Assembly (NCBI GenBank): GCA_938034905.1
Contig: CALHLF010000060.1
Coordinates: 1 to 32,067 of the forward strand
Reading direction: 5' to 3'
Source of the DNA: an uncultured bacterium
GTDB taxonomy: Bacteria; Dictyoglomota; Dictyoglomia; Dictyoglomales; Dictyoglomaceae
Length of the DNA: 32,067 nt
Shown piece by piece: positions 23,739 through 29,627 of this stretch. Made by a program: the position numbers and the translations under genes. Position 1 is the stretch's first letter. The number at the start of each line of letters is the position of its first letter. The notes beneath the pieces were generated by a model. It was not told the origin of the DNA. It ran no database searches and was given only the letters and a program-made list of their open reading frames with translations.

Positions 23739-23755
23739 AAGTAGGAGGTGAAAAA

Positions 23756-26446
23756 ATGTCAAAGAAGATTTGCGATAGATGTGGCCAGAGACCCGCAACA
23801 ATTAGAGTTTCTATTATAAAAAGTGGAAAAAAACAGACCCTTGATCTATGTGAGATTTGCTATGCTAAATATAAACAAAAGGAGAGAAGTTTTTCTCCTT
23901 TAGAATCCCTTTTCTGGGGAGATTTCTTTAAGGATTTTTTTGGAGAAGGATTTGAGCCCTTTGAGAGAGAAAGATTTGATAGGGAAGCAATAGATATTTC
24001 TGTTTATCTTAGCGAAGGAGCTAAGGAGTATTTACAAAAAGCAGGAAGAAAGGCTATTGAATTTGGAAAATCAGAGGTGGATACAGAACATCTTTTATAT
24101 GCATTAACTGAAAATGAAATTGTGCAGGAGGTCTTGAAATATTTTAATATAACCCCTCAAGATTTAAAGGGATATATAGAATATAATGCCCCAAAGGGAA
24201 CTTTTAAGGCTCCTCAGGAAGAAAGTATAGAAATGGAAGTTTCTCCTCGATTAAAGAGTGCTTTAGAAAGATCCTTTTGGGCATCTCGAGATTTAGGTCA
24301 CAACTATATTGGGCCTGAACACCTGTTAATTGGTCTCTCTGAAGAACCAGATGGGTTAGCATATGATATTTTGAGAAAGTTTGGATTAAACCCCGAAGAT
24401 TTAAGAAGGGCAGTGATTGATGTAGTAGGTAGAGGAAAAGAAGAGGGAAGATTAAAGTCTTCTGTAATGACTCCAACTCTTGATAAATATTCAAGAGATT
24501 TAACAGAACTTGCAAGACAGGGTAAATTAGATCCTGTTATTGGTAGGGCGAAAGAGATTGAGACAATAATTGAAATTCTTGCAAGGAGAAAGAAAAATAA
24601 TCCAGTACTTATTGGAGAACCAGGTGTAGGAAAAACTGCTATAGTTGAAGGATTAGCTCAAAGAATTGTGAAGGGAGAGATTCCTGAGGTCTTAAGAAAT
24701 AAGAGATTGATTGAGTTAAACGTGAATTCCTTGATCTCAGGAACAAAATATAGAGGAGAATTTGAAGAGAGAGTTAAGCAAATATTAGACGAAATTACAG
24801 CAAATCAAGATAGATTGATAATATTTATAGATGAGATTCATACTATTGTGGGAGCAGGATCAGCAGGAGAAAGTTCTATGGATCTTGCCAATGTATTTAA
24901 GCCTGCTTTAGCACGGGGAGAACTTCATCTTATAGGTGCTACCACTTTGAATGAATATCAGAAATATATTGAAAAAGATGCTGCTTTAGAAAGAAGATTT
25001 CAACCTGTATTTATCTCAGAACCTACTGTAGAACAAACTATAAATATATTGAGAGGATTAAGGGATAGATTTGAAGCTCATCATAAAGTTAGGATTACTG
25101 ATGAAGCTTTAGTTGCTGCTGCTGTTTTATCTGATAGATATATTACCAATAGATATCTTCCAGATAAAGCAATAGATCTTATTGATCAAGCCTGTGCTAA
25201 GGTTCGTATAAGTTTAACATCTCGCCCCTCAGAGATTCATGAAATGGAGTCTAAACTAAAACAGTTGAGGAGAGAGCAGGAATATGCAACTTCAAGAAAG
25301 CAATTTGATAAAGCTAAGGAGCTAGAAGAACAAATTAAAAAATTAGAGGAAGAACTAAGGAAGGCAGAGGAAAATTGGAAAAAATTAGTATCATCAGAAT
25401 CTGCAGAGGTCAAAGCAAAACATATTGCAGAGATAATTTCTACATTAACAGGAATTCCTGTCTCTGAATTATCTACTGATGAGAGGGAAAGATTATTAAG
25501 ATTAGAAGAGAAACTTCATGAAAGAGTGGTAGCTCAAGAGGAAGCAGTAAAAGCAGTTGCAAATGCTATAAGATTATCTCGAGCAGGATTAAGGGAAGGG
25601 AATCGTCCTATTGCTACTTTTCTATTTTTAGGTCCCACAGGAGTTGGAAAGACAGAATTGGCAAAAGCTCTTGCATGGGCAATATTCGGAGATGAAGATG
25701 CTGTTATCAGAATTGATATGAGTGAATATATGGAGAAACATACTGTTTCAAGACTTATTGGGGCTCCACCAGGATATGTGGGATATGAAGAAGGAGGTCA
25801 ATTAACGGAAAAGGTAAGAAGAAGACCATACAGTGTTATTTTATTAGATGAGATTGAAAAGGCTCATCCAGATGTTCATAATATCCTACTTCAGGTTTTT
25901 GATGATGGGAGGCTTACTGATGGAAAGGGTAGAACTGTAGATTTTACAAATACAGTGATTATAGCAACAAGTAATATAGGATCTGATATAATTCAATATA
26001 ATCTGACTGCTCCTGAAAAGGAAAAGTTAACCTATGAGCAGTTAAAAGAAAAATTAATGGGCCTCTTGAGAAAATATTTTAGACCTGAGTTTCTAAACAG
26101 AATAGATGAGATTATAGTATTTCATGCTTTAACTCAAGATCAAATTAAGGAAATTGTAAAACTACAGTTAGAGAGAGTAAGAAGGGTAGCGAGGGGGCAA
26201 GGTATAGAATTAAGTTTTGATGATTCTATTATTTCTTATCTTGCTAAAGTTGGATATCAGCCTGAATTTGGAGCAAGAGAGTTGAAGAGGAAGATAAGAA
26301 ATGAGTTAGAAATAAAGCTTGCTGAAGCAATGTTAAAAGGAGAGATATCCGAAGGAGATAAAATTTTAGTAACCTATGATGAAGAGGGGAAATATGTAAA
26401 ATTTGAGAAAATTAAAGAGGAGGAAGAAATAGAAACTAAATCTTAG
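23756..26446 (+). CDS. clpC: ClpC/ClpE-like AAA+ unfoldase with N-terminal zinc finger
   Basis: Two-ring AAA+ protein unfoldase/disaggregase of 896 residues. Order: zinc finger with Cys6, Cys9, Cys32, Cys35 (ClpE/McsA type); acidic linker; Clp N-domain double repeat (about 80-225); AAA-1 with Walker A GEPGVGKT (287-294) and Walker B IIFIDE; a short coiled middle region with a UVR-like motif (about 500-545, KQFDKAKELEEQIKKL); AAA-2 with Walker A GPTGVGKT (626-633) and Walker B LLDE (696-699). The segment between TSNIGS (738-743) and FRPEFLNR (775-782), which in ClpC, ClpE, ClpA and ClpX-type partners carries a hydrophobic-Gly-Phe ClpP-docking tripeptide, has none here. The family is certain; ClpP partnership is doubtful. 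AGGAGGTG precedes ATG 23756. Confidence 0.93.
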   Translation: MSKKICDRCGQRPATIRVSIIKSGKKQTLDLCEICYAKYKQKERSFSPLESLFWGDFFKDFFGEGFEPFERERFDREAIDISVYLSEGAKEYLQKAGRKAIEFGKSEVDTEHLLYALTENEIVQEVLKYFNITPQDLKGYIEYNAPKGTFKAPQEESIEMEVSPRLKSALERSFWASRDLGHNYIGPEHLLIGLSEEPDGLAYDILRKFGLNPEDLRRAVIDVVGRGKEEGRLKSSVMTPTLDKYSRDLTELARQGKLDPVIGRAKEIETIIEILARRKKNNPVLIGEPGVGKTAIVEGLAQRIVKGEIPEVLRNKRLIELNVNSLISGTKYRGEFEERVKQILDEITANQDRLIIFIDEIHTIVGAGSAGESSMDLANVFKPALARGELHLIGATTLNEYQKYIEKDAALERRFQPVFISEPTVEQTINILRGLRDRFEAHHKVRITDEALVAAAVLSDRYITNRYLPDKAIDLIDQACAKVRISLTSRPSEIHEMESKLKQLRREQEYATSRKQFDKAKELEEQIKKLEEELRKAEENWKKLVSSESAEVKAKHIAEIISTLTGIPVSELSTDERERLLRLEEKLHERVVAQEEAVKAVANAIRLSRAGLREGNRPIATFLFLGPTGVGKTELAKALAWAIFGDEDAVIRIDMSEYMEKHTVSRLIGAPPGYVGYEEGGQLTEKVRRRPYSVILLDEIEKAHPDVHNILLQVFDDGRLTDGKGRTVDFTNTVIIATSNIGSDIIQYNLTAPEKEKLTYEQLKEKLMGLLRKYFRPEFLNRIDEIIVFHALTQDQIKEIVKLQLERVRRVARGQGIELSFDDSIISYLAKVGYQPEFGARELKRKIRNELEIKLAEAMLKGEISEGDKILVTYDEEGKYVKFEKIKEEEEIETKS

Positions 26447-26461
26447 AAGGGAGGAAATGTT

Positions 26462-26944
26462 ATGGAATTTCAAATAGTTGAAATTGAGAAGCCTGCTGAG
26501 GTTAATCTTATTTTAGGACAAGCTCATTTTATAAAGACTGTGGAAGATATTTATGAGGCAATCGTAACTTCAGTTCCCGGCGCAAAATTTGGATTAGCCT
26601 TTTGTGAATCCTCTGGACCTGCTCTAATAAGACATATAGGAACAGATATGGAATTAGAGGATTTAGCAGTAAAGAATTTACAAAAGATAGGAGCAGGACA
26701 CTCCTTTTTAATCTTTTTAAAAAACCTCTATCCTATTAATGTTTTGAATGCAATAAAACATGTTTCAGAAGTGGTAAATATTTTTGCTGCAACTGCAAAT
26801 CCCTTAAAAGTTATAATAGTAGAAGAAGGTGATGGAAGGGGAATAATAGGTGTAATTGATGGTGTAAAGCCTAAAGGAGTTGAGGAAGAAAAGGATATTG
26901 CTTATAGAAAGGAGTTTTTAAGAAAAATAGGTTATAAATTATAA
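26462..26944 (+). CDS. Adenosine-specific kinase family protein
   Basis: A 160-residue protein of the adenosine-specific kinase family, known from the Pyrobaculum PAE2307 structure and common in archaea and thermophilic bacteria. Recognised by the conserved run through IEKPAEVNLILGQAHFIKT, TSVPGAKFGLAFCESSGP, IGAGHSFLIF and the C-terminal IGVIDGVKPKGVE. Its in vivo role is unproven; phosphorylation of adenosine is inferred from ligand binding in the family. AGGGAGG lies just before ATG 26462, 15 nt after clpC, so it is probably in the clpC transcript. Confidence 0.88.
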   Translation: MEFQIVEIEKPAEVNLILGQAHFIKTVEDIYEAIVTSVPGAKFGLAFCESSGPALIRHIGTDMELEDLAVKNLQKIGAGHSFLIFLKNLYPINVLNAIKHVSEVVNIFAATANPLKVIIVEEGDGRGIIGVIDGVKPKGVEEEKDIAYRKEFLRKIGYKL

Positions 26945-26957
26945 TTTGGAGGAGAAA

Positions 26958-27608
26958 ATGCCTATTATTACTATATCCCGTCAATATGGAAGTAAAGGAG
27001 ATAAGATTGCAGAGAAATTGGCAAAAGATTTAAATTATAGATATTTTGATAAATTTCTTATGGCAGAAATTGCTATTTCTTCTGGGCTTTCAGAGGCAGA
27101 AGTTATTGATTTTAACGAAGATAGTTATAAAGTTAAGGGATTTTTTGAACAATTATTCAAAAAAAGAGAGCCCATAGCAAAAATTACTGTAAAAGAGAAG
27201 GACGATAAAACTGGTAGTACAAGTATTACAACAAAGACCTTTGATGAAGAAGGTTGTCTCTCGTTTGTTCAGGCTGTTATAAGGAAGCTAAAGGATTGGG
27301 GAAATGTGGTTATAGTAGGAAGAGGGGCACAAGTCCTTTTAAGAGATATACCTCAGGTTTTACATGTAAGAATCATTGCTCCTTTAGAGGTTAGAGTTAA
27401 GAATATTATAGAGGAAAGAAATCTTCAGAGAGAAGAAGCATTAAGAGTGATTTTGGAAAAGGATAAGTCTGCTGAAGAATATTTAAGGAGATTTTATAAT
27501 GTGAATTGGGATAATCCAGAGTTATATCATCTAATATTAAATACTGGATTTTTATCCTTAGAACAGGGTGTGGAGATAATTAAAAATGCGCTGAAAATAA
27601 TAGTTTAA
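26958..27608 (+). CDS. Cytidylate-kinase-like family protein
   Basis: A 216-residue protein beginning MPIITISRQYGSKGDKIAEK, with the modified P-loop (RQYGSKGDKIA) typical of the cytidylate-kinase-like family, then YFDKFLMAEIA, GNVVIVGRGAQVLL, and VRIIAPLEVRVKNI with an arginine-rich lid (EERNLQREEA). These resemble nucleoside monophosphate kinases, but substrate specificity is unknown in the family. The ATG at 26958 is chosen over TTG 26946 because GGAGGAG fits it. The gene ends against the convergent lyase-like gene, the two stop codons overlapping in TTTAA (4-nt overlap). Confidence 0.85.
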   Translation: MPIITISRQYGSKGDKIAEKLAKDLNYRYFDKFLMAEIAISSGLSEAEVIDFNEDSYKVKGFFEQLFKKREPIAKITVKEKDDKTGSTSITTKTFDEEGCLSFVQAVIRKLKDWGNVVIVGRGAQVLLRDIPQVLHVRIIAPLEVRVKNIIEERNLQREEALRVILEKDKSAEEYLRRFYNVNWDNPELYHLILNTGFLSLEQGVEIIKNALKIIV

Positions 27609-28978
27609 AATAATTCTCCTATTTCTTCTTCCACATGATTTAAAAGGTCATATAGTTTATTTTCTAAAATTTGAATTTTATTATCTAATTCTATATCCTG
27701 AAAAGAAGAAAGTAAAGATTTTATAAATTGATAAGATATTTCAGTTCCCCTTCCACATTTTAAAGATTTACAAAAATCTATAACCTGGACCCCATAGAGT
27801 AAGCTTATAGCGATTATTTTCTCCCAATTTTTAATAATTTTTTTAAGTTTTGTTATATTTTTTATTTCTATTTTTAAAAGAGTTTCTCCATATAAAGAGA
27901 ATATAATATTACCTAAGGATTTAGATAATTTTTTGTTTTCTTCAACTAATTTGCGACATGTATCATAAAGAGATGGTAAATTAAGCCTAAAAGTAGATTG
28001 AATTTCAAAGTTTAACTTTTCCAGGGAGCATGTTAAATTTGTAATAATCATAGAAAGGTAAGAAATACCATAAATAAGAATTCCTATATAAAGATTTTTA
28101 TCAAGAATAAATTCTTGTTCATAATCAATTATAGGACTGTGAGATATAGAATTAATTTCTATTTCTAATATATCTTTTATAAAATCTATAATTTGATGAA
28201 AAATGAAAAATACTTGAGAGATATAACCTAAAAGATGGCTATCTTTATATTTATTAGAAGAGAAGATATTTTCACTTCCTGAGAGGATTTTTCGGAGATT
28301 CTCATAAAATTTAATTAATCCCAAATGGGGTCTTAAGGCTTGTACAATAGAATTAAGAAATTTCTTATCTATTTTTAAAGACTCAAGGGAAAGGGCAATG
28401 GCAATTTCTGATATTTTTTTCAATTTTTGAATTTTTACAAAATATAAACTTAAAATGCCACATATATAATAACTTCCACTTGTAAGTGCTAATACCTCTT
28501 TTGAATCTAAATTTATTGGCACTATGTTTGATTCTTTTAATGCTTTTTCCGTTTTTACTCTCTCATTTTTATATATAACTTCTCCCTTCCCATTTAGGGC
28601 ATAAATGATAAAATTCAGAGGATTAAGATTTTTATTGGAGAATTTTTCTTCAGGAATTAAAGGGATAATATCTTTTCTTAAAAATTCTAATATCTTTTCT
28701 ATAACTTCAATACGAACTCCTGAATATCCAAGAGATAGTGTGTAGGCTTGCAATATCATAATTGCTCGCGTTTCTTCTAAAGAAAGAAAATTTTTGTTCT
28801 GAATAAAGATATCATTATATAATACATCCTTCCTTTCAAAAAATTTTTCCCAGAATTTTCTACTGCTTTTAATTCTTTTTTTTAATTCTGATGAAAGCCT
28901 GATATCATGGGGTTTTTGGCTTAATTTGTAGATATCTTCTATTGAGAGTCCAAAGGGATTAAGTTCATATTTATCCAT
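27605..28978 (-). CDS. Degenerate aromatic amino acid lyase (HAL/PAL-like) homologue without MIO triad
   Basis: A 457-residue protein that, by eye, follows the histidine/phenylalanine ammonia-lyase framework along most of its length. Landmarks in order: LSIEDIYKLSQ then RLSSELKKRIKSSRKFWE (11-44; family LSPEALARIAASR); RAIMILQAYTLSLGYSGVRI (71-90); LIPEEKFSNKNLNPLNF (107-123; family GASGDLAPLAH); YKNERVKTEKALKESNI (136-152); LALTSGSYYICGIL (163-176; family LALINGT); ALRPHLGLIKFYENLRKILS (214-233, then GS); LEIEINSISHSPI (271-283; family IEINSATDNPL). Changes at catalytic positions: the Ala-Ser-Gly triad that makes the MIO prosthetic group is replaced (about Ser114-Asn115-Lys116), the YSLR motif reads HLLG (248-251), GGNFHG reads LDKNLYIG (292-299), and YGxNTGFG is absent. 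It is probably a non-catalytic family member. The ATG overlaps the phoU stop by 8 nt, so the two are translationally coupled. Confidence 0.75.
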   Translation of the reverse strand: MDKYELNPFGLSIEDIYKLSQKPHDIRLSSELKKRIKSSRKFWEKFFERKDVLYNDIFIQNKNFLSLEETRAIMILQAYTLSLGYSGVRIEVIEKILEFLRKDIIPLIPEEKFSNKNLNPLNFIIYALNGKGEVIYKNERVKTEKALKESNIVPINLDSKEVLALTSGSYYICGILSLYFVKIQKLKKISEIAIALSLESLKIDKKFLNSIVQALRPHLGLIKFYENLRKILSGSENIFSSNKYKDSHLLGYISQVFFIFHQIIDFIKDILEIEINSISHSPIIDYEQEFILDKNLYIGILIYGISYLSMIITNLTCSLEKLNFEIQSTFRLNLPSLYDTCRKLVEENKKLSKSLGNIIFSLYGETLLKIEIKNITKLKKIIKNWEKIIAISLLYGVQVIDFCKSLKCGRGTEISYQFIKSLLSSFQDIELDNKIQILENKLYDLLNHVEEEIGELF

Positions 28979-29627
28979 GAAGTTCCTTCTTTTCTCCTGT
29001 TTCCATATAATAAATGATTTCGATTATGTTAGTTATATGGTCTGCTATTCTTTCTAAATATCTTGAGATCATTATTAATTGAATGATTTCTTGAGTGTTT
29101 TTAGGGTTTTTTTGTATCTCATATATCATGTAATATAAGATTTCTTGATATTTAGAATTAATTTCCTTATATTTTGATGATAATTCTTCTAAGAAATTTA
29201 ATTCCGGTTTAAAATATATTCTTATTACTTCTCTTATCATATTTTCTGTAAGTTCTCCCAAGAGGAAAATATCTTTCCAAGGGAGTTTGAAGAAATTTTC
29301 AAGGAGATTTGAAGAAAATTTAGCTATATCTACCGAATAATCTCCGATTCTTTCTAAATCTTTTATAATCTTTATAGTAGATGCAATAATTCTTAAATCT
29401 TTTGCAATAGGTTGATATTGAGCGAGAAGATTGATGCAATTGTTTTCAATATTCCAGTAATATTTGTCAACGAGATCATCTTTTTTTATTGTATCAAGAG
29501 CTAAGTCTAAATTCCTTTTTTTAAGGGCTTCTAATGTCTGGTGTAGCATTTTCTCTACAATACTTCCCATTCTTATAACATTCTCTCTTAATATTTCAAT
29601 TTCCTTATCTAAGGACTTTTTCTCCAA
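28971..29627 (-). CDS. phoU: PhoU-family phosphate signalling protein
   Basis: All-helical PhoU protein of 218 residues, a negative regulator linking the Pst phosphate transporter and PhoR in other bacteria. Two PhoU repeats are visible: residues about 10-100 (IRMGSIVEKMLHQTLEAL, then LRIIASTIKIIKDLERIGDY) and about 110-210 (IQLIMISRYLERIADHITNI), each with the E/DR..GD or ER..DH metal-binding signature. No ATG gives a full N-terminus, so the TTG start at 29627 is used, with AAGAGG about 10 nt upstream. No pst genes are adjacent; instead the gene is coupled to the lyase-like gene. PhoU alone cannot be tied to phosphate here. Confidence 0.88.
   Translation of the reverse strand: MEKKSLDKEIEILRENVIRMGSIVEKMLHQTLEALKKRNLDLALDTIKKDDLVDKYYWNIENNCINLLAQYQPIAKDLRIIASTIKIIKDLERIGDYSVDIAKFSSNLLENFFKLPWKDIFLLGELTENMIREVIRIYFKPELNFLEELSSKYKEINSKYQEILYYMIYEIQKNPKNTQEIIQLIMISRYLERIADHITNIIEIIYYMETGEKKELHG

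Follow-up and report, generated by a model that had tools for sequence, protein, structure and literature searches.

A chromosomal ClpG/ClpK-family Hsp100 protein, most likely an autonomous disaggregase, in a Dictyoglomus-family thermophile

The clpG gene and the architecture of its product

The window analyzed here is a 32,067-nucleotide stretch of contig CALHLF010000060.1 (assembly GCA_938034905.1) from a hot-spring, Dictyoglomus-like bacterium whose genome, 1.84 Mb in size and 99.6% complete, is placed in the Dictyoglomus family, in a genus other than that of D. turgidum and D. thermophilum. On its forward strand, an open reading frame (ORF) at 23756–26446 starts with ATG and encodes an Hsp100 protein of 896 amino acids (aa), which on sequence grounds is a chromosomally encoded member of the known ClpG/ClpK family and which most likely functions as an autonomous, ClpP-independent disaggregase. 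The gene is preceded, 5 bases before the ATG, by a putative ribosome-binding site, AGGAGGTG (23743–23750, forward strand), predicted to act as a strong Shine-Dalgarno element; GGAGGTG stands ahead of the start codon in all four orthologues (L006 to L009).

The initial annotation, made from the sequence alone, described a zinc finger, an N-domain and two AAA domains, and all of them are present (all coordinates on the forward strand). The protein opens with an N1 zinc-finger domain (aa 1–42, 23756–23881), recognized from alignments, phmmer, AlphaFold2 (AF2) and Foldseek and predicted to bind zinc, in which alignments place Cys6, Cys9, Cys32 and Cys35; it is followed by the motif SPLESLF (aa 47–53, 23894–23914), found by alignment to be common to ClpG and ClpK. 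N2 consists of a double Clp_N domain (PF02861 in two stretches, about aa 85–228, 24008–24439, outer bounds approximate). AAA-1 (about aa 240–424, 24473–25027) contains Walker A at 287–294, the pore loop KYRG and Walker B at 355–360, and AAA-2 (aa 617–786, 25604–26113) contains Walker A at 626–633, the pore loop GYVG and Walker B at 694–699; both Walker pairs, both pore loops and the FRPEFLNRIDE segment are intact. The D2-small domain (aa 792–872, 26129–26371) was delimited with Pfam and is followed by an acidic tail of 24 aa. Together, the Pfam matches were Clp_N (two stretches), AAA, AAA_lid_9, AAA_2 and ClpB_D2-small.

The end of the lid and the short M-domain lie between the two AAA domains and span 87 aa as measured by alignment (aa 478–564, 25187–25447), within the range of ClpC-like proteins (82–89 aa) and well below ClpB (146–151 aa). 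The same span of 87 aa was found in 90 of 91 ClpG rows; it was not measurable in the remaining one, nor in 5 of 19 ClpC-like and 1 of 7 ClpB rows. These 91 rows contain a duplicate (L061 = L066) and many near-copies, so that their counts are not independent events. The middle region had been called UVR-like, and it does fit a ClpC-type M-domain; UVR itself was absent among the matches listed for the protein (25 of 54 from Pfam).

The region of the ClpP-docking loop (aa 741–774, 25976–26077) carries NLTAPEKEKLTYE between TSN and FRPEF, at the place where the aligned ClpC of the same genome has LGF. In the alignment with this ClpC, Listeria ClpC (MGF) and ClpB, no hydrophobic-Gly-Phe was seen in the window protein, and the phmmer alignment leaves a gap opposite the VGF of B. 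subtilis, in agreement with the absence first proposed for this segment. None of the five orthologues, the window protein included, has [ILV]GF at the docking position. A docking tripeptide elsewhere in the loop was also looked for, and the sole match to [ILVM]G[FLYM] was MGL at residues 768–770, directly ahead of FRPEF. The docking motif of E. coli ClpA is IGL. As a counterpart of it, MGL was rejected: its glycine is kept in only two of the five orthologous proteins, the window's and L007, whereas L006, L008 and L009 have Asn or Asp there, and MGL is therefore not a conserved docking motif.

As judged by sequence, the missing tripeptide is a rule of the ClpG family, with exceptions: 85 of the 91 family sequences have no [ILVMFY]G[FLYM] at the docking place, one has LGY (L126) and five have IGF or VGF (L080, L081, L083, L086 and L104). 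The five carriers are three Inquilinus, one 'Mycobacterium' grouping with them (L086) and one Rhizobiales; their tripeptide is shifted by one residue from the docking offset of ClpC, and they are nested among motif-less ClpGs. Regained ClpP docking is possible in these proteins, as is chance in a variable loop.

Placement in the ClpG/ClpK family

Among the NCBIfam models, ClpG ranked first with the window protein (1300.7 bits, residues 1–877), followed by ClpK, ClpB, ClpV of the type VI secretion system and ClpA. No model among these five reached its curated cut-off; for ClpB (TIGR03346) the score was 1019.3 against 1232.1 bits. The window protein thus lies outside NCBI's narrow ClpG/ClpK subfamily models and inside the wider clade. 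In a tblastn search against plasmids, the best 40 matches were 60.9–62.7% identical, most of them annotated as clpK, and they covered residues 1–881 or 1–883 (one from residue 2), N1 included. Overall, the protein is 61–65% identical to ClpG/ClpK and 54% identical to the ClpC of its own genome.

In maximum-likelihood trees built from the AAA cores of 57 and 58 rows, the ClpG clade that took in the window protein had 100/100 support and also contained a ClpG-like protein of P. aeruginosa PA7 and plasmid ClpK; the ClpC of the same genome fell outside. The nearest relatives beyond the Dictyoglomus family were from Bipolaricaulota. For these trees, rows more than 85% identical were thinned (118 to 72); the first tree was built without 15 further rows, of which 6 were long-branched (ClpL among them) and 9 were near-duplicates, and in the second 4 more ClpG rows were removed and 5 zinc-finger rows added. 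Neither tree contains a characterized ClpE, and three of the 80 named loci (L076, L100 and L121) were dropped as having no ORF of at least 850 aa.

A similar architecture could have arisen by an independent fusion of a zinc finger and an N-domain to ClpC, the loss of the docking motif being convergent with ClpG. Hsp100s with a zinc finger and Clp_N do exist outside the ClpG clade, namely L177 (YGF), L178 (no motif) and L181 (LGF). However, the trees place the window protein in ClpG from the AAA cores, with finger and N-domain left out, and it is closer in identity to ClpG/ClpK than to its own ClpC; we consider an independent fusion scarcely credible. An approximately unbiased (AU) test did not reject the placement of L178 in ClpG (p 0.113), and the outer edge of the ClpG clade is therefore not sharp. 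Two further proteins, L179 and L180, are ClpE-like, with a zinc finger and no Clp_N seen, and their docking loop is much shortened, with about 9 residues from TSN to RPE.

The finger carries less weight as evidence, and the protein was assigned to its family from the AAA core, N2, the M-domain and the docking loop. N1 shows strands at residues 16–22 and 25–31 and a helix at 33–44. It was weakly matched in Pfam by DUF7685 (residues 6–36, 25.1 bits against a cut-off of 27) and was also weakly McsA-like (25.8 bits). When residues 1–80 were searched alone with phmmer, 8p66, the nuclear magnetic resonance structure of ClpG N1, narrowly led the PDB sequence matches (E 0.0011), followed by a collagen adhesin (0.0028), ClpE (0.004) and McsA (0.018). 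A search with an N1 profile likewise ranked ClpG N1 first (2.6e-18), with TAL-effector repeats directly below ClpE. The AF2 model of residues 1–84 was confident only to about residue 40 (a hairpin and a helix), and Foldseek gave 8p66 as its top match (probability 1.00, E 0.04).

The initial annotation had regarded the combination of finger and N-domain as unusual and had proposed a new ClpE/ClpC hybrid. This combination is instead the norm of ClpG, and the whole architecture is that of ClpK/ClpG, described in 2010 (PMC2976762). A supposed hybrid can thus be struck from the list of oddities and given its proper family name.

At E 1e-6, the N1 profile gave strong matches in 13 of 290 genomes, from few families: 8 were in frames of about 900–1000 aa (5 from the Dictyoglomus family), 1 in a frame of 226 aa and 4 in frames the size of McsA. 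When named genomes were scanned with a pattern, at least 542 relatives were returned, of which 80 were kept; among these were Pseudomonadota, Bipolaricaulota, Patescibacteria, two metagenome-assembled genomes (MAGs) of Thermaerobacter and one Myxococcota. ClpK was stated in 2010 not to be found in Gram-positives (PMC2976762), a statement that may need updating in view of the Thermaerobacter MAG contig L075. Two archaeal MAGs (L090 and L091) and the 'Mycobacterium' contig that groups with Inquilinus (L086) were not relied on for the distribution. A free-standing protein of 215 aa in L064 (2050–2697) has N1 and Clp_N and no AAA domain; its genome also encodes a ClpB. This protein may be a truncated form of ClpG or a piece resembling an adaptor.

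Chaperones and proteases of the host lineage

Using the window protein as query, we found only two long Hsp100s in its own genome, along with a dnaX-like frame of 508 aa. One locus of this genome (L035) has the order pdxS-pdxT-mcsA-mcsB-clpC-radA, the ClpC bearing LGF, and another (L036) has clpP (PF00574) beside a trigger-factor-like gene and clpX; except for clpP, these names were read from sequence. The mcsA product also has a UVR match and a weak N1 match, and dnaK is present. The initial annotation had suggested that the built-in finger replaces McsA input, which is not supported because mcsA-mcsB-clpC, clpP and clpX occur in the same genome.

With the ClpB model, none of seven Dictyoglomus-family genomes, of which two are closed (D. 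turgidum, G003, and D. thermophilum, G004), exceeded the 1232-bit cut-off: pieces scored up to 539 bits and the whole window protein 1019. ClpB was also below the cut-off in G016 and in the ClpG-bearing G106 and G244, which we take as Bipolaricaulota because their ClpGs are 94.6% and 85.9% identical to those of the named loci L097 and L082. It was over the cut-off in G103, G181, G010 and G014, and in 176 of 290 sampled genomes. ClpG matches were absent from two incomplete family genomes, G005 (86% complete) and G006 (72% complete). That ClpB, the usual disaggregating machine, was not found in a Dictyoglomus-like host is the notable point of this inventory.

The presence of clpP is compatible with a ClpE/ClpC-type unfoldase that would still feed ClpP through contacts besides the tripeptide. 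The finger is nearly as near to ClpE as to ClpG, the N-terminal domain of ClpE is homologous to ClpG N1, and ClpE, which carries VGF, also touches ClpP via its allo-R region and an extended P-loop (PMC13125188). However, ClpE in which VGF was changed to GGR was deficient in ClpP interaction (PMC13125188), the orthologues uniformly lack [ILV]GF, and the same genome has an LGF-bearing ClpC beside mcsA-mcsB. The tree, in which no characterized ClpE is included, places the window protein in ClpG, away from ClpC, and its match to E. faecalis ClpE (671.6 bits) is below that to ClpC (860.8 bits). We therefore regard continued feeding of ClpP as very unlikely. A DnaK-dependent substitute for ClpB, rather than an autonomous disaggregase, would agree with the presence of dnaK and with no ClpB being found, and the lysine at the position of Leu21 (see below) may mean a low N1 affinity. 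Against it, the M span is short, with no room for the second wing of ClpB (PMC8129007), and N1 is kept with its four cysteines; this dependence appears very unlikely.

We hold with considerable confidence that the window protein is an autonomous, ClpP-independent Hsp100 disaggregase of the ClpG/ClpK family, in a thermophile of the Dictyoglomus family. The stand-alone role raised by the initial annotation is supported by homology, being a known trait of ClpG/ClpK (PMC8024975, PMC8129007, PMC2976762). The conserved motifs suggest an ATP-driven threading ring. By extension from characterized relatives, its N1 finger domains would bind zinc and dock straight onto protein aggregates; a chain would then be threaded through the pore and set free to refold, without proteolysis, Hsp70 targeting or ClpP. 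ClpC, ClpX, ClpP, McsA and McsB of the same cell would constitute a separate proteolytic branch. The window ClpG is probably the main disaggregase of its family, because no ClpB was found there. If it works like the characterized ClpGs, an extreme thermophile lineage depends on a disaggregase acting autonomously in the role that ClpB has in most bacteria. Dictyoglomus would then offer a natural test of ClpG substituting for ClpB, and a stable protein would become available for structural work on ClpG, a family that the cited papers approach mainly via the heat-resistance islands of pathogens.

Several observations weigh against this reading. The title of a 2013 paper by Bojer reportedly credits the clpK locus with activities both dependent on and independent of ClpP. 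With NF033607 and NF033606, the window protein scored 1300.7 and 1272.2 against a cut-off of 1900. The full-length AF2 model (17 sequences; mean pLDDT 65.0, AAA-2 mostly below 50) was too poor for judging AAA-2 and was not used. By itself, the finger hardly tells ClpG from ClpE (0.0011 vs 0.004), the profile value of 2.6e-18 is partly circular because the alignment contains a ClpK almost identical to 8p66, and Foldseek gave no N1 match at E 0.001. The fourth zinc ligand is Cys, not His, in the window protein and Asp in L007; across 18 aligned ClpG rows this residue is Asp in 12, His in 5 and Cys in 1. The Pro/Lys-rich C-terminal extension of 20–40 aa typical of ClpG was not found after the D2-small domain of the window protein; its deletion left most of the activity of ClpG (PMC8024975). 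In P. aeruginosa ClpG, V17 and L21 serve aggregate binding by N1 through its zinc-dependent fold and Leu21 is needed for aggregate targeting, and some ClpG proteins have Gln at position 21 (PMC10641755). Val17 is retained as Val18 in the window protein, with Ile20 between it and Lys22, which occupies the Leu21 position; each of the five orthologues has Lys or Arg at this position. The affinity or the aggregate preference of the window ClpG may thus differ from those of the studied ClpGs.

An adenosine-specific kinase gene (PF04008, 26462–26944, forward strand) begins 15 bases after clpG and a cytidylate-kinase-like gene (PF13189) comes next, both within 26462–27608; such genes, which are not heat-shock genes, come next on the clpG strand in all five Dictyoglomus-family loci (assigned with Pfam in the window and read from sequence in the four orthologous loci), and in L007 an opposite-strand ORF lies between clpG and the first of them. 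Beyond are a gene for an aromatic amino acid lyase family protein (PF00221, 27605–28978, reverse strand) and an adjoining PhoU-like gene (28971–29627). A search of the window for CIRCE and CtsR boxes that tolerated up to 3 mismatches gave no match, and the D. turgidum genome paper likewise reports no CIRCE (PMC5167688). Scans for promoters (15 found vs 12.1 ± 4.1 in shuffles) and terminator-like sites (6 vs 1.6 ± 1.2, all within coding sequence) were not used.

The initial annotation also considered partnership with another protease, for which the only hint comes from Bipolaricaulota, the neighboring tree branch. There, in 6 of 10 loci, a gene for a ClpP-like serine protease of the SDH type (PF01972) touches clpG, either overlapping it by 1 or 4 bases or leaving a gap of 3 bases, 4 times upstream and 2 times downstream, and in 4 loci an Hsp20 gene lies upstream of the SDH gene. 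SDH and Hsp20 genes were sought with phmmer from two Pfam-checked seeds. The SDH gene touches clpG in L063 (4575–5426), L065, L067, L068, L069, L071 and L097, and in L061 (5800–6651) and L066 it is 600 bases upstream of clpG. When L066 and L106, where the gene is near clpG on the opposite strand, are added to the 6 of 10, the total is 8 of 80 loci, with unequal flanks. G106 (L063) has Hsp20, SDH and clpG in succession, and in G244 (L062) clpG is overlapped by Hsp20, with SDH at another place. The SDH gene of the window genome (L145, 3821–4639) is likewise away from clpG, between rhomboid-like and hrcA-like genes as read from sequence; this order, which G003 (L146) shares, suggests a heat-shock link. 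The adjacency in Bipolaricaulota hints at a functional link and is not evidence that ClpG feeds a protease. Several genomes of the deep thermophile ClpG branch (Dictyoglomus family and Bipolaricaulota) have no ClpB over the cut-off. In a speculative and improbable extension, ClpG of this branch would serve as the main disaggregase and would also head a second quality-control unit that does not depend on ClpP, working with Hsp20 and passing irreparable chains to a membrane-anchored SDH-type protease. Our literature search returned nothing useful on the SDH protease.

Comparison with characterized Hsp100 proteins

ClpB shares with the window protein the disaggregase role and the lack of a ClpP tripeptide, but it has the longer M span (6 of 7 rows measured), needs Hsp70 and was not found in the Dictyoglomus family. 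ClpC (of B. subtilis and the paralogue of the same genome) shares Clp_N, the AAA domains and the size of the M-domain, whereas it has no N-terminal finger, bears VGF or LGF and is found in an operon with mcsA-mcsB. ClpE of Enterococcus faecalis 29hb has an N-terminal zinc domain homologous to N1 and a ClpC-type M-domain; it differs in its VGF, in being ClpP-bound and in that its PDB match, restricted to residues 240–882, aligned no Clp_N. As the window protein possesses Clp_N and has no VGF, a ClpE-type identity was rejected.

The closest likeness is to ClpK of Klebsiella pneumoniae and ClpG of P. aeruginosa. The features by which Bojer et al. (2010) defined ClpK were an N-terminal extension, a putative zinc finger, an intermediate linker and a missing ClpP tripeptide (PMC2976762). 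ClpG is a stand-alone disaggregase that acts without Hsp70 and requires N1 for disaggregation (PMC8024975; PMC10641755), its finger binds protein aggregates (PMC10641755), and its short M-domain has no second ClpB wing (PMC8129007). The window protein shares with them the N1 finger, SPLE(S/A)LF, the double Clp_N, the 87-aa M span and the missing tripeptide, and it falls into one clade with them (plasmid ClpK and PA7 sequences were compared). It differs in the Cys as fourth ligand, the Lys in place of Leu21, the lack of the Pro/Lys extension and of tLST-type neighbors, the host in which no ClpB was found and its scores under the narrow NCBIfam cut-offs. Among the papers listed in a literature search, none dealt with ClpG taking the place of ClpB in Dictyoglomus, which is no proof of absence. 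Bojer et al. (2010) listed D. thermophilum among the species with a ClpK homologue (PMC2976762), and the orthologue of that species (L009, in G004) is 76% identical to the window protein and has like downstream genes, in a different genus of the same family. The protein itself is ordinary in kind; the finding of most use is that its host lineage showed no ClpB.

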